From: Flavobacteriales bacterium
GTDB taxonomy: Bacteria > Bacteroidota > Bacteroidia > UBA10329
Length of the DNA stretch: 64,000 nucleotides
NCBI GenBank assembly: GCA_016124845.1
Contig: WGMW01000022.1
Coordinates: 1 to 64,000, forward strand
Direction: 5' to 3'
Positions 178 through 62,272 of this stretch are shown in pieces (position 1 is the stretch's first letter; each line of letters opens with the position of its first letter). The notes beneath the pieces are model-generated. The model had not been told where the DNA came from. It searched no databases and saw only the letters and a list, made by a program, of their open reading frames with translations. Both the position numbers and the translations under genes were made by a program.

Positions 178-180
178 TAA

Positions 181-254
181 GATCAGTTCGGAAACTGATC
201 GTACTGAACACCACACGAGTGACCCTTCGGAACACTCGGGTGAGCGGGGGAATG
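181..254 (-). repeat. Structured repeat copy A (two hairpins)
   Basis: Two hairpins in tandem. The first is GATCAGTT/AACTGATC (181-188 and 193-200). The second is CGAGTG/CACTCG (216-221 and 233-238) with a loop holding CTTCGGAA, followed by GAGCGGGGGAATG (242-254). It is an inverted partner of copy B at 733-803 and close to copy C at 59223-59294. It lies just 5' of the secreted-protein gene at 290-718, so that gene sits between inverted copies. Confidence 0.75.
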
Positions 255-289
255 AGAGACAATCGCATTTTGACGAGTGCTATCTTGGA

Positions 290-718
290 ATGGGAGTATT
301 TATCATCTGGTTTTTAGCTCTGTTTCTTTTGATGACATTTACTATGGACTCTCATGCCCAAACTCGGGACTCTATTGAAATTCGAGTCTGTGATGAGATG
401 CACCGTAAAAAAAGGGATTCTTTGGTTGAGATAGACCTTGTCATTTGTGGAGACACGATACAGTTTCCTTGGACAAAGGAGACGAAGTATCGCAGACCTA
501 CTTGTCTTGATGGAAAGAGTGACAACATAATTCCCGTAATCTTAAAAACTTGTCGATACATATACAGTTTTGCGATTCTACCGGAAGAGTGGGATCAGTG
601 TCGCGATTTTACTTTTTGCATCACAGGAGAAAGAGGCAGGCATGGGACCTACGGTTATCATTATTATTATTGCTATAATGTGAGTTCTGCTGGCTATTGC
701 CTCAGAACAAGAAGGTAA
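290..718 (+). CDS. Small secreted cysteine-containing protein, unknown function
   Basis: I do not recognise the family. From the ATG at 290 the protein has 142 residues and opens with a strong signal peptide (MGVFIIWFLALFLLM, cleavage probably after SHAQ). The frame is open further upstream to 107, but that part overlaps the RHS fragment and repeat A, so 290 is preferred because it places the signal peptide at the N terminus. The mature part has about seven cysteines and ends in a Tyr-rich, basic stretch. The gene lies between inverted repeats A and B and next to an RHS remnant. This position fits an orphan effector or immunity gene of an RHS cassette, but nothing in the protein proves it. 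Confidence 0.5.
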   Translation: MGVFIIWFLALFLLMTFTMDSHAQTRDSIEIRVCDEMHRKKRDSLVEIDLVICGDTIQFPWTKETKYRRPTCLDGKSDNIIPVILKTCRYIYSFAILPEEWDQCRDFTFCITGERGRHGTYGYHYYYCYNVSSAGYCLRTRR

Positions 719-732
719 AGGCGACTGGCTAC

Positions 733-803
733 TTCCCCCGCTCGCGCAAGTCTTCGGAACGATGACTTGTGTGGAACAGAACACGATCAGTCTCTGACTG
801 ATC
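733..803 (+). repeat. Structured repeat copy B (two hairpins)
   Basis: It begins TTCCCCCGCTCGCG, then has the stem CAAGTC/GACTTG (747-752 and 764-769) around a loop with TTCGGAA, and ends with the hairpin GATCAGT/ACTGATC (785-791 and 797-803). It starts 14 bases after the stop of the gene at 290-718. The stem bases differ from copy A but pair equally well, as expected if structure rather than sequence is kept. Confidence 0.75.
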
Positions 804-816
804 TATAAGAATGAGA

Positions 817-45276: not shown

Positions 45277-46692
45277 ATGTCATTGCTTAGACTCCTCGCT
45301 TCTTACAGATTCTCCCGTTATGTGAAGTTAACGGTGTTGCTGTGGGATTTGGTATTGCTGAATGCGGGATTCCTTACTTCGCTTTACCTCCGTCATGGCA
45401 ACACGTCACGATTGGCCGAATCGGAAACACGTACCATCTGGTTACTGGCAAACGTACTTTGGATAGCCTTAGTGCTGTACATGGACGCCTATGCTTTGCT
45501 ACGCGTTGACAGAATTGAAAAGTTACTGATGAGGACCATAAGAATGCTACTCATCCACATCATGTCTGTTGCGCTATTCCTGCTTATGTTAGACTACGAC
45601 CATCTCTCGAGGTTGCACCTGTTTTTCTTTTACTTGGCATTCGGTGCGAGTGTGGCCATTTCAAGAGTACTTTTTCTGAAGTCCCTCAAGTATGCGCGTT
45701 CCAAGGGCTACAACTTCAGGAGAATTGTAGTGATAGGTACTGGAAATATGGCCGTAAAGATCGCGGAGGTGTTGGAGTCTGATATTTCGTTCGGGTTCAG
45801 ACTTCTGGGGTTTTTCGGAGACAGAAACGTGGCTGAGGTCGATTTGGCTCGAATCATCGGTCCAATAGCAGAATTGGAGCCGTTTCTCCAACACAATAAG
45901 GTACATGAGATCTATATGGCACTTCGGTCGGATAGACCAGAGATCATCAGGCAGACCATTTTTCTGGCAGAGAAATACATGGTTCGGATCAAGTTCATAC
46001 CCAACTTTTACTCCTACACCAAGGGAAGACATGTGAATATTGACTTTTACGGCCATATCCCGGTAATGATGGTTCGGAAAGAACCTTTGGAACTGCCCAT
46101 GAACAGGCTACTGAAAAAGCTTTTCGACATGGCATTTTCATTGGCTGTCATTGTCCTCATATTCTCCTGGTTGTTCCCCATTCTCATCGTATTGGTCAAG
46201 ATGAGTTCCCGAGGGCCTGTTTTTTTCCGGCAACTGCGTACGGGGGAGGATAATCATGAATTCATATGCATGAAGTTCCGTACAATGAGAGTCAACGATC
46301 TTTCGGATGAACTACAGGCAACATCGGCCGATCCACGGATAACAACTGTTGGAAAATTGATGCGGAAGACCAATCTTGATGAGCTTCCGCAATTTTTCAA
46401 TGTTCTTACAGGAAGCATGTCAGTGGTTGGGCCGCGGCCTCATATGCTGAAACATACAGAGCAGTACTCTGCCCTGATTGACAATTACCTCGTTCGCCAT
46501 TTTGCCAAACCCGGCATAACGGGGTGGGCACAGGTAAATGGTTACCGAGGAGAAACCAAGGAACTTATCGACATGGAGAAGAGGGTAGAATATGATATCT
46601 GGTATATTGAAAATTGGTCGTTTCTGTTAGACCTGAAAATCATTTGGAGAACGGTGTGGAACATGGTTCGAGGTGAGAAAAACGCAGTATGA
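45277..46692 (+). CDS. Undecaprenyl-phosphate sugar phosphotransferase (WcaJ-type)
   Basis: A 471-residue initiating enzyme. Four membrane helices (about 15-115), a CoA-binding-like middle ([18 protein letters not shown]), another helix near 285, and a C-terminal bacterial sugar transferase domain with [47 protein letters not shown] and [13 protein letters not shown]. It attaches the first sugar phosphate to undecaprenyl phosphate, starting each repeat unit. Wzi follows with a 4-base overlap. Confidence 0.93.
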
Positions 46693-53883: not shown

Positions 53884-54330
53884 ATGGAACTCAGCGTTTT
53901 TTCGGACGAGCATTTTATGAAGGAGGCCCTGAAGGAGGCGAACAAGGCCTTCGATAAGGACGAGGTGCCTGTTGGGGTGGTGGTAGTGGCCAACAAGCGC
54001 GTCATTGCGCGGGCGCACAACCTTACCGAAGCGTTGAATGATGTAACGGCCCATGCCGAGATGCAGGCCATTACCTCGGCAGCCGATTTTATCGGTGGCA
54101 AGTACCTGAAGGGGTGCACGGTTTATGTAACGTTGGAGCCCTGCGTGATGTGTGCAGGTGCGCTTTTCTGGAGCCAAGCGGACCGCGTGGTGTATGGTGC
54201 CAGCGATGACAAACGGGGTTTTTCAACGGTAGGGAATCTGCTGCATCCCAAAACCAAAGTGACGGCTGGTGTGATGGCCGATGACTGTGCCGACCTGCTT
54301 AAGCTGTTCTTCAGCAAGAAGCGGAAGTGA
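53884..54330 (+). CDS. tadA: tRNA adenosine(34) deaminase-type nucleoside deaminase
   Basis: A 148-residue zinc deaminase. AHAEMQAI supplies the zinc-binding His and catalytic Glu, and LEPCVMCAGAL the two zinc cysteines, the TadA pattern. TadA makes inosine at position 34 of tRNA-Arg. Later NLLHPKTKVTAGV matches TadA rather than cytosine deaminases. The ATG at 53884 (MELSVFSDEHFMKEAL) is chosen; the longer frame from 53821 has no support. A hairpin follows at 54344. Confidence 0.93.
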   Translation: MELSVFSDEHFMKEALKEANKAFDKDEVPVGVVVVANKRVIARAHNLTEALNDVTAHAEMQAITSAADFIGGKYLKGCTVYVTLEPCVMCAGALFWSQADRVVYGASDDKRGFSTVGNLLHPKTKVTAGVMADDCADLLKLFFSKKRK

Positions 54331-54343
54331 TCACAACCGAAAA

Positions 54344-54374
54344 GCGTTGTCAACTTTCAAAAAGTTGACAACGC
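54344..54374. terminator. Hairpin after tadA (same element as 817-843)
   Basis: GCGTTGTCAACTTT (54344-54357) pairs with AAAGTTGACAACGC (54361-54374). Fourteen perfect pairs, 3-base loop, 13 bases after the tadA stop. The inner GTCAACTTT...AAAGTTGAC part is shared with the hairpin at 817-843, while the outer base pairs differ but still pair. A terminator or small dispersed palindrome. Confidence 0.55.
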
Positions 54375-54520
54375 TAATCTACAGGTCGCCATTCAGAAGA
54401 TTTGAGCGGGTGTTTTTTTTCGTCACTCATTGCTTTATCAAGGCCATTTATCAATTGATTCCTCACCGTTCATCAATTGGGACAAGAAGGTTGTTGGTTT
54501 ATTGGGTATGTTTGGGATGG

Positions 54521-55894
54521 ATGAAGTTGGTTATGAGGTTCTTACTGTATATAATGGCAATTGTCCCAAGTCTGAGCTGCGCACAGATATGCTCAAATTC
54601 AATTGTACCTCCTGCAACCATCAATGGGGTTGATGTCACAGCAACCTATAGTGGCTCCGTTTCCTTTTTCGGTACCAGTTATTCATCTTGCGGACTGTTG
54701 TACACCACGCCTCCTGGTTCAATTCATATTGGTGAAGGTGGTGCTTATGAATACACGTTCAATTTCAGCATACAGGTCAATGATATAGATTTTGTGTTAA
54801 CTGCGACAGGAAATGATGCGAACGAAGTTTTTACGTTCACTACCAATGCAGGTATACCTACAATAATCGATCATGGCTCTTGTTTCACGACTGTATCAGC
54901 TAACGTGATCACGTCTGGATTAGGTGCTCCGAGTTCCAGTGGAGGCGGAGGCGGGATTTTTACGGTGACCAACTCCGAGCCATTCAGCTCTTTGACGGTG
55001 TCCGGAGATGGTGGTTCTGCAGGAAGTTTACTGGCAGTTTGTTCTTCTTCTATTGTTCCAGCTGTGCAGACAGTAGAAATCTGTACCGGAGACAGTATGC
55101 TACTTGCTGGAATGTATCAATACGAAACCGGTCTTTACTCAGATACAATTCACGGTGGAAGTGTAAATGGTAATGACAGTATTGCAATAACTTACTTGGT
55201 GGTTAACCCCGTGCCGTCTGTTAACTTGGGACAGGACACTTCATTGTGTATAGGTGATAGTTTGGCCATTGATGCAATGACAAATGGCGCAACTTACGTT
55301 TGGCAAGACGGGTCTGAAAATGCATTCTTCGAAGTTACCCACCAAGGAACATACTGGGTTGAGGTTACTATCGAAAATTGCAGTTCGGTCGATACCCTGA
55401 ATGTAGCTTATAATGAGTTGCCTACAGATGTACTTGGAAACGATACCGTGGTCTGCTTGGGTAAGGAATTTCTTCTTGATGCAACCATCCCAGGAGCGAC
55501 CTACCTGTGGCAGGATAACTCGATGAATCCAACTTTGGTAGCGGTCGAGGATGGGGTCTATTGGGTCGAACTCAGTTTGAACAACTGTAGTGTAAGTGAT
55601 ACGGTAACGGTCCATCATGAAATATGTGATCCAATTCTATTGATTCCCAACGTTTTCACACCCAACAAAGATGGTATAAATGAACTTTTCACCCCAGAAA
55701 CCAACTTAGGGATTGCAGAAATGAGAACCGCGATCTACAATAGATGGGGGAGATCGGTTTTTAAGTCAAATGACCTTACAATAGATTGGAATGGAGATAA
55801 TGTAGATGCAGGAACTTATTTCTACATTATCACCTACGTTGACTTTCTGCAGAACGTAGGACATGCGACCGGTTATGTGACAATCGTTAAATGA
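54521..55894 (+). CDS. Secreted protein with gliding motility-associated C-terminal (T9SS type B) domain
   Basis: A 457-residue secreted protein. The signal peptide (MRFLLYIMAIVPSLSCAQ) starts at 54521 or 54533; the frame is open far upstream into tadA without meaning. The middle holds beta-sandwich modules with GATYVWQDGSENAF and GATYLWQDNSMNPT, similar to the Ig-like repeats of the T9SS protein at 2195. The end, LIPNVFTPNKDGINELFTP...YNRWGRSVFKS...WNGDNVDAGTYFYII, is the gliding motility-associated sorting domain. The Bacteroidota T9SS should export it. Function unknown, probably adhesive. Confidence 0.87.
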   Translation: MKLVMRFLLYIMAIVPSLSCAQICSNSIVPPATINGVDVTATYSGSVSFFGTSYSSCGLLYTTPPGSIHIGEGGAYEYTFNFSIQVNDIDFVLTATGNDANEVFTFTTNAGIPTIIDHGSCFTTVSANVITSGLGAPSSSGGGGGIFTVTNSEPFSSLTVSGDGGSAGSLLAVCSSSIVPAVQTVEICTGDSMLLAGMYQYETGLYSDTIHGGSVNGNDSIAITYLVVNPVPSVNLGQDTSLCIGDSLAIDAMTNGATYVWQDGSENAFFEVTHQGTYWVEVTIENCSSVDTLNVAYNELPTDVLGNDTVVCLGKEFLLDATIPGATYLWQDNSMNPTLVAVEDGVYWVELSLNNCSVSDTVTVHHEICDPILLIPNVFTPNKDGINELFTPETNLGIAEMRTAIYNRWGRSVFKSNDLTIDWNGDNVDAGTYFYIITYVDFLQNVGHATGYVTIVK

Positions 55895-55967
55895 AAATCC
55901 TGCGCCCGCGAGTGTTCAGAAGAGACATTATCATGGTACTGAACACCACCAATTACAGATTGGTCCA

Positions 55968-56043
55968 TATCCTCCATGCCGATGAAGCATGAATGAAAAG
56001 TAAACAAAAAGCCCCGCCAAGCAATTCGCTTGGCGGGGCTTTC
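55968..56043. repeat. 76-bp direct repeat, left copy
   Basis: Matches 59315-59390 with about five differences. It includes TATCCTCCATGCC, TGAATGAAAAGTAAAC and the terminator hairpin. The two copies bracket the five small minus-strand genes between 56066 and 59087. A partial third copy (ATTGAAAAGTAAACAAAAAG) occurs near 57029-57049. Confidence 0.85.
56008..56042. terminator. Bidirectional intrinsic terminator
   Basis: AAAGCCCCGCCAAGC (56008-56022) pairs perfectly with GCTTGGCGGGGCTTT (56028-56042) around AATTC, with A-runs before and T-runs after. It lies between the convergent ends of the gliding-motility-type gene and the gene at 56066-56941, and can serve both. Confidence 0.9.
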
Positions 56044-56065
56044 AGCGTTGACCGCATCAGCAACC

Positions 56066-56941
56066 TCATGGTAGCAAACTGTGGATGAAAGCGTGCAGTA
56101 AGATAATGTCGTTGCGGCTCTTTTTATTCTTCCGGTCTTCGTACAGATGGCATACATCTGCAATGATGTAATTGGAATATTCCTGTTGGTTTCGATACTC
56201 CAATAGCCATGGGTCGCCCGTTATACACGCAACAGGTTCGGTGGGAATGGCGCTCAATCGTTTCCGTATGCGTTTCAAGCTGTTCGCGTCTATTGTAAAG
56301 GATTCTCTGCGGGTTACACGGAAACCGTTGAAGTCGATGGATTCACCTTCAATTCGTGTGCAAATGGCCGAGTCTTTTCCAAAAACAATTTTCTCTACCA
56401 AAAAGGTTGGATGCTTCTGGAAGCTACCTGGGAAATAATCTACTGTACGAAGTGCAATGATGTCTTCATCAAGAGGGTGCTCATCTGCAGATTGCAGGAT
56501 CTCTGAAAACCGCATGTCATCATACAATGCCGAATTGAAATAGTGAACGCCTTTGACCACCACGTCCGAAAAGGTCGTGTCATAGTTCACATTCGCGCTC
56601 TTTCGGTAACTGTAGATGGTGTCGACCTGAGGGTTGAACGCGGGTTCGAGCCTGTAGACAGAACCATCAGCGGTGAAAACAAGATCGGGGTCTATCGTGT
56701 GGGTTGAATCGGCAAAACCAACCTGAAAATACATGTACCCGTTTTCTTCCGTGAATCGGGTAAATCGATAAACGGTGTCGCTTGCCATAAAACAAACCCG
56801 GTTGAATTCGATGGTGTACGGAATCTGTTGTTTTGGAAGTTCAGCCGCCCGCGAATCTTTGTTCAACGTTTGACCAGCTACCTCCATGAAGCCAAGGACC
56901 AAAGCGGAGAAAAGAAGCGTGACGTGTCTTGAAGTTACCAT
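56066..56941 (-). CDS. Secreted hypothetical protein
   Basis: A 291-residue protein I do not recognise. It begins with a signal peptide (HVTLLFSALVLGFMEVAGQ) if the ATG at 56941 is used; the frame runs 41 codons further upstream but that part reads into the partial 76-bp repeat. The rest looks like a beta-rich periplasmic or surface protein (VYRFTRFTEENGYMYFQVGF). A late VACITGDPWLLEYRNQQ and LLHAFIHSLLP end it. It is the last gene in the array of small minus-strand genes; repeat D1 lies upstream of it. Confidence 0.65.
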   Translation of the reverse strand: MVTSRHVTLLFSALVLGFMEVAGQTLNKDSRAAELPKQQIPYTIEFNRVCFMASDTVYRFTRFTEENGYMYFQVGFADSTHTIDPDLVFTADGSVYRLEPAFNPQVDTIYSYRKSANVNYDTTFSDVVVKGVHYFNSALYDDMRFSEILQSADEHPLDEDIIALRTVDYFPGSFQKHPTFLVEKIVFGKDSAICTRIEGESIDFNGFRVTRRESFTIDANSLKRIRKRLSAIPTEPVACITGDPWLLEYRNQQEYSNYIIADVCHLYEDRKNKKSRNDIILLHAFIHSLLP

Positions 56942-57080
56942 CGGGTGTTCTTCTTCATCAATGCAAAAGGCCGAACGGGTTTTCAATAAACTTATTCTAG
57001 GATGGGCAGCACTTCTTTTCTCAACCCATTGAAAAGTAAACAAAAAGCTGCCGATGCCGCGCATTGTAAGGGCGTGGCCT

Positions 57081-57129
57081 GTTTGCTTGTGTACCTACGA
57101 ACGGGTCACGGACGCGCCTGAGCTGGAAG
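57081..57129 (-). repeat. Structured cassette repeat D1 (most diverged)
   Basis: On the minus strand it begins about 10 bases after the stop of the gene at 57138-57644. It contains the CGCGTCCGTGACCCG core and GTACACAAGC, matching D2-D4 with more differences. One stem mismatch is present. Confidence 0.7.
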
Positions 57130-57137
57130 TCATTATG

Positions 57138-57644
57138 CTATCTCTCCAAAATGACTTCCGAGTCCCATGTGCAATCTTCCTTAAGAAAGTATCGAATCGT
57201 CCAAATTCTGTTGAGGGCTCCAATAGATGATCTGCCCTTCTTGAAGAAGTTCTTGTCAAGAGGAAAAGCGACATCGCGCATTACAAATACAATTTCATTT
57301 GGCGCACTACTTTTAACCATTACACTTCTGGTGCTCAAGGTATTTCCAGTCCGATTCAGGCCGTATGCTCTTGCCAATTCCCTACCTTGAAACAGGTTGA
57401 TCTGGATACCATTTATTATGGTATCCCTCAAATCGAACATTTTTATCAATTCTGAACTGATGTAATATGGCATCCTACCCCTGTTCTCGGAATGAGAGAT
57501 GTAAAATGAACATGTTGTTTTATTCGAAAACTCGAAAAATATATTGGCCTTTAAATCAAAAAGCTGACCATAACCAAGATAGGGTGAAATGAGAAGAACA
57601 GCGGTTACCAATGTGCGTGTCAGTATGATTTTTCTGTTTTTCAT
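57138..57644 (-). CDS. Small secreted hypothetical protein
   Basis: A 168-residue protein with a signal peptide (TLVTAVLLISPYLGYGQ). No family recognised. The mature part has few features: a stretch FYISHSENRGRMPYYISSELIKMFDLRD and a C-terminal IWTIRYFLKEDCTWDSEVILER. It ends 9 bases before repeat D1 and is preceded by repeat D2, the same unit layout as its neighbours. Confidence 0.6.
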   Translation of the reverse strand: MKNRKIILTRTLVTAVLLISPYLGYGQLFDLKANIFFEFSNKTTCSFYISHSENRGRMPYYISSELIKMFDLRDTIINGIQINLFQGRELARAYGLNRTGNTLSTRSVMVKSSAPNEIVFVMRDVAFPLDKNFFKKGRSSIGALNRIWTIRYFLKEDCTWDSEVILER

Positions 57645-57690
57645 TTTTCACAATCGTGTTGATTAGTATCGACATTTGCCTTAAGAACCC

Positions 57691-57738
57691 TGTTCGCTTG
57701 CGTGCCAACAAACGCACAGATGCGCCCGATCGGGGAGA
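57691..57738 (-). repeat. Structured cassette repeat D2
   Basis: On the minus strand TCTCCCCGATCGGGCGCATC, then a short loop and GCGTTTGTTGGCACGCAAGCGAACA. It starts 11 bases after the stop of the gene at 57749-58201. The GATCGGG variation keeps the flank similar to D4; the inner stem has lost two bases compared with D3 and D4. Confidence 0.75.
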
Positions 57739-57748
57739 TAAGAAGGAA

Positions 57749-58201
57749 CTATTTCGAAAGCACCTGAATATCCAAAACCTTCAGTTTTGTTGGTTTGACT
57801 GTCAGTTCACCCTCTTGCGATTGACCTTCACAGCCCGAAACAAGTCCTCCCAAAGAATCATCTGAATAGAACTCTACAGTGACCTTGTAATGATTGCCCA
57901 AAAACAAACCATTTAATACTTCAGGACAGGTGATGATAAACAAAACACTCTTATCACCGAAAATCGATGCGGATTCTACGGTGCCTTTCACACAAATGGA
58001 GTACACGACTGTACCACAGCCAACATAATTCCTCCCCAATCCGTCTATAACCGCATCAACTTCAAACTTATGTTTCTCACTTGAATTATATCCTATCTGT
58101 CCGATAGCAGCGGAATAGGTAAACATCAAGCCCGATAGCACCAAAAATCCAATCTTTACCCTCCTGCCCGCGTTTGCAACCCACGACTTGTTCGCTTGCA
58201 T
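57749..58201 (-). CDS. Small hypothetical protein with a membrane anchor or signal
   Basis: A 150-residue protein from the ATG at 58201, which lies inside repeat D3; the frame runs 20 codons further upstream through the repeat. A hydrophobic segment (IGFLVLSGLMFTYSAAIGQ) near residue 20 is a probable signal peptide. A possible start between the repeat and the hydrophobic segment was not found, so the first ~15 residues (MQANKSWVANAGRRVK) may be repeat-derived. The remainder, beta-rich with VGCGTVVYSICVKGTVE, is unrecognised. Confidence 0.5.
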   Translation of the reverse strand: MQANKSWVANAGRRVKIGFLVLSGLMFTYSAAIGQIGYNSSEKHKFEVDAVIDGLGRNYVGCGTVVYSICVKGTVESASIFGDKSVLFIITCPEVLNGLFLGNHYKVTVEFYSDDSLGGLVSGCEGQSQEGELTVKPTKLKVLDIQVLSK

Positions 58202-58237
58202 GCCTACAAACGCGTCACAGATGCGACCGAGCAGGGA
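58188..58237 (-). repeat. Structured cassette repeat D3
   Basis: On the minus strand it reads TCCCTGCTCGGTCGCATC, TGT, GACGCGTTTGTAGGCATGC and AAGCGAAC. CGCATC/GACGCG form the stem, with one G-T pair. The upstream gene's last codons (VPARSHL) and stop are inside it, and the downstream gene's ATG is too. Confidence 0.8.
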
Positions 58238-58511
58238 CTTTAAATGTGATGTCATCGCCATTCATAATTTGGACATTAAGCATTTTTTCTCCACTATCTT
58301 TCAACTTCAAACCATATCCTTCTATTTCGAAATCTATATCGTCTAACAGGCTCAACATTTGGTTATTGGCATAGTCTTCATACCTCCTGAATAACTCCAT
58401 CAATTCAGATGGCATGGAGATAGCCTCAAATTTCCCAGAGTAGGAGTTTCCACTTTTTATAGGTGACTTCACCTTCCCCACTAATTGATTTGTTCTATCC
58501 ACTACATCCAT
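58215..58511 (-). CDS. Small cytoplasmic hypothetical protein
   Basis: A 98-residue protein without signal peptide: MDVVDRTNQLVGKVKSP, then KFEAISMPSELMELFRRYEDYANNQM and IDFEIEGYGLKLKDSGEKMLNVQIMNGD. The C-terminal PARSHL and stop lie in repeat D3. It is the only gene of the array lacking a secretion signal, so it could be an immunity or chaperone partner for a secreted neighbour, purely by analogy with toxin loci. No family recognised. Confidence 0.5.
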   Translation of the reverse strand: MDVVDRTNQLVGKVKSPIKSGNSYSGKFEAISMPSELMELFRRYEDYANNQMLSLLDDIDFEIEGYGLKLKDSGEKMLNVQIMNGDDITFKVPARSHL

Positions 58512-58525
58512 GATTATTCTTTTCT

Positions 58526-58566
58526 GCTACCTACAAACGCGTCACAGATGCGCCCGAGCGGGGAGA
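58526..58566 (-). repeat. Structured cassette repeat D4
   Basis: On the minus strand TCTCCCCGCTCGGGCGCATC, TGT, GACGCGTTTGTAGGTAGC. It starts 2 bases after the stop of the gene at 58569-59087 and ends about 14 bases before the start of the next gene. This copy is closest to an apparent consensus. Confidence 0.8.
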
Positions 58567-58568
58567 CA

Positions 58569-59087
58569 TTAAAAATCATACGAATTATCGCGCTTTCTAT
58601 ATTCTTTACAACTCATCAAATAAGGGTAGTGAGTTCTTATACTGTCAAATGCAAATGACATTTGAAGTCTCTTGCTGAATCGTGGTTTAGCGTGAGGATC
58701 ATGCTTAGCATTTAGACGCCTACTCTTAATATGAAAACCAAGCAGACCGTCATGTTCCGTTTCTACTGAGTCACAGAACACGTTCGGAAAGTGCGTCACA
58801 AAACATGAGTTTGAATTAGAAAACCGAACAATGGCGTATTTTGAATTTTTCAAACCTTCGCACTCTTCGGGGTTTAGTACCGGAAGTCGAAACTCAGATT
58901 CCGACAGTCGTATCAGCTCGTAGTATTGAGATTCGATAATGAGCTCCATCTTGAATTCCTGAAGCATAGCCTTTGTGAAATCTGGATTAGTGCCGTTCCA
59001 ATCATGTCTAATATGCAGTATAGACTGAGCAACTCCACAATGACTCATCACTATTAGAAAGAAAATAGTTATCAATTTATCGCTCAC
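58569..59087 (-). CDS. Small secreted hypothetical protein
   Basis: A 172-residue protein with signal peptide (LITIFFLIVMSHCGVAQ). No family recognised. The mature part has three cysteines, including one in PEECEGLKN and one in VFCDSVETEHDG. A basic region RRLNAKHDPHAKPRFSKRLQ precedes the C terminus SCKEYRKRDNSYDF. It is the first gene of the minus-strand array; D4 directly follows its stop, and copy C of the inverted-type repeat lies 135 bases upstream. Confidence 0.6.
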   Translation of the reverse strand: MSDKLITIFFLIVMSHCGVAQSILHIRHDWNGTNPDFTKAMLQEFKMELIIESQYYELIRLSESEFRLPVLNPEECEGLKNSKYAIVRFSNSNSCFVTHFPNVFCDSVETEHDGLLGFHIKSRRLNAKHDPHAKPRFSKRLQMSFAFDSIRTHYPYLMSCKEYRKRDNSYDF

Positions 59088-59221
59088 AACTCATTTCATA
59101 TCAAGGTTAAGACTATTCAACAATGCCAAGAGGGTTTCTTCTATCATTTTTCTCCGTCAAAACGTTATTGTGAGAGTCTCGAAACAATTATGAATTATCT
59201 ATTAGTCTACAGAAAACGGAC
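59088..59221. other. Short gap upstream of the small-gene array
   Basis: No open gene. A/T-rich and possibly the array promoter, but no clear TAnnTTTG box was identified on the minus strand. The rest of the 320-base gap to 59407 is repeat C and the right 76-bp repeat. Confidence 0.35.
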
Positions 59222-59222
59222 A

Positions 59223-59294
59223 TTCCCCTCGCCCAAGCGAGTGTTCCGAAGGATCGCTCCTGTGGTGTTGGTTACGATCGGTCATAGACTGATC
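59223..59294 (+). repeat. Structured repeat copy C (two hairpins)
   Basis: TTCCCCTCGCCC, then AAGCGA...TCGCTC with GTGTTCCGAAGGA between, TGTGGTGTTGG, then GATCGGTC (59276) pairing with GACTGATC (59287). Orientation and parts match copy B at 733-803 and the reverse of copy A. About 58 kb separate it from them. Confidence 0.75.
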
Positions 59295-59314
59295 TATTTG
59301 ACATCCATTGTCAT

Positions 59315-59390
59315 TATCCTCCATGCCATTGAAGCGTGAATGAAAAGTAAACAAAAAGCCCCGCCAAACGATTCGCTTGGCGGGGCTTTC
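59315..59390. repeat. 76-bp direct repeat, right copy
   Basis: Second copy of 55968-56043, with about five differences. It sits at the stop side of the M16 peptidase gene and contains its terminator. Confidence 0.85.
59355..59389. terminator. Intrinsic terminator of the M16 peptidase gene
   Basis: AAAGCCCCGCCAA (59355-59367) pairs with TTGGCGGGGCTTT (59377-59389), loop ACGATTCGC. On the minus strand it follows the peptidase stop by about 18 bases. Nearly the same hairpin as at 56008-56042. Confidence 0.9.
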
Positions 59391-59407
59391 GCTTGTGTCT
59401 GTCCGAA

Positions 59408-62272
<2,865 letters not shown>

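Follow-up and report, generated by a model that had tools for sequence, protein, structure and literature searches.

The analysed window, a stretch of 64,000 nucleotides, has the end of contig C22 as its left border, so that the locus is cut on this side. Close to this end, two inverted repeats (copies A and B) enclose the gene of a small secreted protein, with a probable RHS core end on the left and a ParDE-like toxin-antitoxin pair on the right (Table 1). As claimed by the first-pass annotation, exactly one plausible gene lies between A and B; upstream of it, the reading frame continues without a stop through A. The encoded protein is an orphan, which matched no family in Pfam or NCBIfam and for which homologues were found neither in the genus nor, beyond noise, in 395 genomes of the phylum, nor in plasmids, viral contigs or other loci of the repeat family. 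Its single-sequence AlphaFold model reached a pLDDT of 47, too poor for use. The 54-aa frame to the left of A ends in SYVFGFNGQEKEDERKS followed by the stop. Comparison with RHS tips having TIGR03696 matches suggests an RHS end, but only the last ~14 residues resemble an RHS core and no Pfam or NCBIfam profile matched the frame. Hence, the RHS remnant noticed earlier just outside A is a probable one.

Table 1. Features of the locus at the contig end and of the second island discussed below (window coordinates).
Feature	Start	End	Strand	Remarks
Probable RHS core end	13	177	+	Motif FGFNGQEKEDE; truncated just before A
REP copy A	180	251	+	Alignment, folding, covariance model
Orphan secreted protein, 142 aa	290	718	+	ATG at 290, stop 716-718; hydrophobic N-terminal signal by eye
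REP copy B	734	804	- (inverted to A)	Alignment, folding, covariance model
27-nt hairpin GTCGTCAACTTTCAAAAAGTTGACGAC	817	843	+	Adjoins B
Third REP, partial	877	914	-	Hairpin 2 only; just outside B; 21.8 bits
ParD-like antitoxin	1019	1276	+	PF03693, 5.7e-9
ParE-like toxin	1263	1553	+	PF05016, 3.3e-17
Degenerate REP	55898	55966	-	Inside second island; 21 bits
Full REP copy	59225	59295	-	Right edge of second island; 77.3 bits

Both repeats consist of two hairpins, as described before. Hairpin 1 of copy A reads GATCAGTT-CGGA-AACTGATC and is followed by a linker, hairpin 2 (CGAGTG..CACTCG) and the foot TGAGCGGGGG; the corresponding parts of copy B are GATCAGTC-AGA-GACTGATC, the linker GTGTTCTGTTCCACA, CAAGTC..GACTTG and the foot GCGAGCGGGGG. 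Folded as single-stranded DNA, A and B each adopt the two-hairpin structure (-16.6 kcal/mol, z -4.0, and -15.1 kcal/mol, z -3.2, respectively). Their inverted arrangement could be confirmed as well, with arms of 65 nt on opposite strands (188-252 and 733-797) that are 72% complementary and spaced by 480 nt. Nevertheless, A and B are no matched pair: their identity is 74%, a value of at least 0.74 is found in 29% of all copy pairs, and the nearest copy to B, a lone REP with 89% identity, belongs to another species (G004). Rfam contained no meaningful match to the repeats.

A covariance model built from nine copies, with copies counted at E <= 0.01, revealed a family of 63 copies distributed over all nine genomes of the genus. 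The earlier suggestion to look for A and B elsewhere in the genome was thus rewarded with 13 copies in the own genome (G000), where A and B themselves scored E-values of 1.7e-18 and 2.6e-20 (both are among the training copies of the model). Outside the genus, the same search found copies in just 1 of 30 genomes, and the exact pattern was absent from viral contigs. The element has a length of ~71 nt, with the foot lying 3' of the two hairpins. A longer variant, represented by some of the copies in G002, G004, G006 and G008, has GGAACACTTAGCCGGGCGGGGG after hairpin 2. In an alignment of 36 copies, made by sequence only, standard pairs occupy 93% of the pair cells, 11 of the 17 pairs show double-sided changes, and the covariation score of 0.356 (0.118 in shuffled alignments) was reached in none of 500 shuffles. 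Hairpin 1, for example, occurs as GATCAGT/ACTGATC, GCCCAGT/ACTGGGC, GGACGGT/ACCGTCC and GCGAAGT/ACTTCGC with the pairing kept. The copies are palindromic, several in number and mostly intergenic, as expected for the REPs of a RAYT. However, the aligned copies show no conserved tetranucleotide before hairpin 1 that would correspond to the canonical 5' foot GT[AG]G, and therefore we file them as atypical REPs only. Their orientation relative to genes is not random, since the foot points toward the 3' end of a gene in 29 of 38 cases (within 250 bp). At two loci (L082:2982-3557 and L073:2766-3257) a REP is translated, forming a lipoprotein C-terminus in one gene and lying in the N-terminal region of the other.

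The corresponding transposase is encoded on contig C33 of the same genome. This RAYT (G000:C33:46256-46807, 184 aa) matches the NCBIfam equivalog NF047646 REP_Tyr_transpos with 99.6 bits (cut-off 80) and also Pfam Y1_Tnp; a sequence search of the PDB gave no match at E 0.01. The gene is enclosed by inverted REPs at 46164(-) and 46862(+), the same arrangement is found in G008:C97, and in G005:C13 a REP lies on one side of the RAYT. RAYT remnants directly adjoin REPs in G002, G003, G004 (two), G000:C14 and G037; such fragments face hairpin 1 of the REP, like the RAYT gene of the intact units, and the foot-side flanks contain just short RAYT matches. In G004:C6 (L081 2930-4700), a T9SS-type secreted gene lies between inverted REPs with 5' and 3' fragments of a RAYT directly outside each, as if the gene were sitting between two decayed RAYT units. 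Directly to the left of A, blastn found no RAYT relic and we do not claim one, although ~20 bp resemble the C14 flank by eye. A clean empty site for the C33 unit was not found, the right-hand neighbour of the REP-side gene being different in relatives. RAYT homologues occur across Bacteroidota with 51-84% identity, and many of them are flanked by inverted repeats with CCCCCGCTnCCGC at their ends, which is the A/B foot in complement; the foot AGCGGGGG thus recurs beside many RAYT homologues of the phylum.

Because of the family, its covariation and a RAYT flanked by inverted copies, we regard A and B as atypical REPs like those of subclass-2.6 RAYTs. The former proposal of MITE-like mobile DNA holds in this sense: the repeats are REP elements of a RAYT, a kind already described in general terms, and the family is a further member. 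The RAYT may be active and may mobilise these REPs. According to the subclass description in PMC6006769, subclass 2.6 RAYTs occur mostly in Bacteroidetes, lack a GTAG foot, have atypical secondary structures alongside with copies elsewhere in the genome, and are defined by NH[LIV]H, YIH[QN]NP and about 179 aa without GTAG; the reported median HuH-Y distance is 82 residues. The C33 RAYT agrees with this description in its length of about 180 aa, the tyrosine motif YIHNNP, a HuH-Y distance of ~83 residues and flanking inverted structures that lack GTAG and recur in the genome. However, its HuH motif is NHAH and not NH[LIV]H, hence its membership in subclass 2.6 is likely but unproven. The two covarying hairpins and the phylum-wide foot AGCGGGGG go beyond that subclass description; they provide a defined anatomy for the atypical REPs of Bacteroidota RAYTs, so that the way in which the transposase recognises them can be put to the test. 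REPINs or BIMEs are inverted REP doublets mobilised by a RAYT in the proposed model; 93% of the doublets are inverted, and REPINs are short and contain no gene (PMC3116915). Here, in contrast, only 2 of 13 pairs are inverted with the feet inward, each with a gene inside. TIRtrons or TIRYTs, in which a tyrosine transposase is framed by long terminal inverted repeats and these repeats constitute a modest family (PMC3733652), share with our system a transposase between inverted repeats recurring as such a family, but they have the motif GGGGWSAS instead of AGCGGGGG.

The site itself is an accessory island. In G001, G004, G006, G007 and G008, murI is the direct neighbour of a gamma-carbonic-anhydrase-like gene, the two genes converging; in G000, a different contig carries murI, and the sequence on that side spans 25 kb and includes an RHS tip. 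Since the two genes are neighbours in these relatives, the first 1557 bases of the window are accessory and the insertion is much larger than A, the gene and B. The search for an empty site in relatives, as proposed earlier, was therefore successful for the whole island, the left portion of which is missing beyond the contig end, but not for the unit of A, gene and B. The same spot carries other accessory genes in G005 and G002, in the latter toxin-antitoxin-like genes with a ParDE relative. ParDE-like toxin-antitoxin genes also follow the RHS modules of G002:C1 (L091 4600-7700) and G004:C36 (L084 1500-3200).

A second island in the window is a genome-specific insertion of 5.1 kb (54330-59408) flanked by tadA and the gene of an M16 peptidase. 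Among the REP-edged islands with an empty site it is the cleanest: in G002, G003, G005, G006 and G007, only a short terminator separates the two genes. The island contains five co-oriented orphan genes and a CHU_C (T9SS) gene. Its degenerate REP and the following terminator (55898-56043) form an imperfect direct repeat of ~150 bp with the REP and terminator at the right edge (59225-59390). The left-edge candidate (54363-54417) reached a non-significant 6.7 bits. Furthermore, a 35-nt repeat occurs in four copies at or between the ends of the orphan genes (57094, 57702, 58203 and 58530) and folds no better than shuffled sequences.

The layout at the contig end had been read as a one-gene mobile cassette, to be doubted if copies were always found alone. 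Indeed, 38 of the 63 copies stand alone, yet some do pair around genes, and the family is strongly clustered: 13 pairs of neighbouring copies are no more than 2 kb apart, compared to 0.32 expected (~40-fold). Two of these pairs enclose a RAYT, four contain no gene (44-211 bp apart) and seven enclose other genes. Among the latter, two are inverted with the feet inward (the window and G004:C6) and five are direct (C19, G002:C57, G004:C1, G005:C11 and G002:C1, the last around an RHS tip and a small gene). Hence, a further single gene between inverted copies, as was to be looked for, exists in G004:C6, but the remaining pairs around such genes are direct. A crude signal-peptide rule was applied to the genes between REP pairs; its baseline was 18% in the window and 48% in the relatives, and it missed the window gene itself and therefore we do not claim any enrichment of secreted genes.

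We consider it probable that A and B go back to independent insertions of an atypical REP, or to one insertion combined with a local rearrangement, and that the enclosure of the gene is a by-product. REPs would spread in trans as single-stranded DNA through the RAYT/TnpA-REP transposase of contig C33 and would accumulate in islands, in the case of A and B in the island between murI and the gamma-carbonic-anhydrase-like gene with its RHS debris and ParDE pair. The enclosure of the orphan, a gene of this island and possibly a stranded RHS immunity gene, would follow from this build-up, as the REPs cluster; for the same reason, independent insertion does not mean random insertion. A finding against this explanation is that both strong inverted pairs with cargo, in the window and in G004:C6, have their feet inward. 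One could imagine that the inverted REPs are the left and right ends of a cassette, in which the RAYT moves A, the gene and B together like a REPIN composite. The inverted copies around exactly one gene, the same layout in G004:C6 with its secreted gene and outer RAYT fragments, and the order of degenerate REP, lipoprotein gene and REP beside the RAYT on C33 are consistent with such a cassette. Moreover, A shares CACCACACGAGTGACCCTTCGG with the REP 3' of the RAYT (by eye), and the REP on its 5' side has 87% identity to B. However, the likeness of A and B does not exceed that of randomly chosen copies, direct pairs are as common around genes, most copies are single, and among the matches listed neither a recurring end pair with cargo nor a cargo gene common to two REP loci was found. 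The cassette thus appears quite unlikely. A broader version, which we regard as similarly doubtful, states that orphan genes for secreted proteins or lipoproteins form modules delimited by REP pairs with their feet inward (window 180-804, 54.3-59.4 kb, G004:C6 and C33), and that these modules are placed at convergent gene ends by the RAYT via single strands or by recombination between REPs. If true, the RAYT/REP system would be a vehicle for accessory genes in the genus.

The REPs, often together with a shared leader of ~100 bp, could also serve as a recombination scaffold, i.e. as homology for swapping RHS tips, immunity genes and other accessory genes. In G002:C1, two modules of RHS tip and partner gene stand in a row, each followed by a REP(-) and the same leader, one of the partners being a lipoprotein gene. 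G004:C36 shows the order RHS tip, secreted gene, REP(-) and leader, the window RHS end, REP, orphan and REP, and the repeated REP plus terminator segment of the second island would fit as well. Nevertheless, the RHS is linked to a minority of the copies, and no two of the compared strains differ by exactly one exchange, which makes the scaffold an unlikely explanation. The RHS core end adjoining a small secreted gene resembles orphan RHS tip-immunity modules, of which clear examples with TIGR03696 tips lie beside REPs in G002 and G004; unlike these, the window contains no toxin tip. Given the tip and partner modules beside REPs in G002:C1 and G004:C36, the enclosed orphan is possibly a stranded RHS immunity gene. 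Finally, unrelated hairpins or an assembly fault might be suspected, as the window begins at a contig end. But the family extends over nine genomes with covariation, which rules out chance hairpins for the repeats and makes this reading extremely improbable as a whole. As to the build-up of REPs in islands, the preferred explanation, their concentration next to RHS modules and orphan secreted genes may provide a seed for gene exchange.

Some smaller sequence elements accompany the REPs. The hairpin of 27 nt beside B (GTYGTCAACTTTCAAAAAGTTGACRAC) is found at three sites (817-843, 54346-54372 and L268:1624-1650 on contig C20), all of which adjoin a REP or REP-like sequence, and it may be a stand-in for hairpin 1 in a variant REP. 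A poly-C tract of ~10 C (857-869) lies in the space from copy B to the partial REP, and a similar tract precedes the REP in L084, around 3005.
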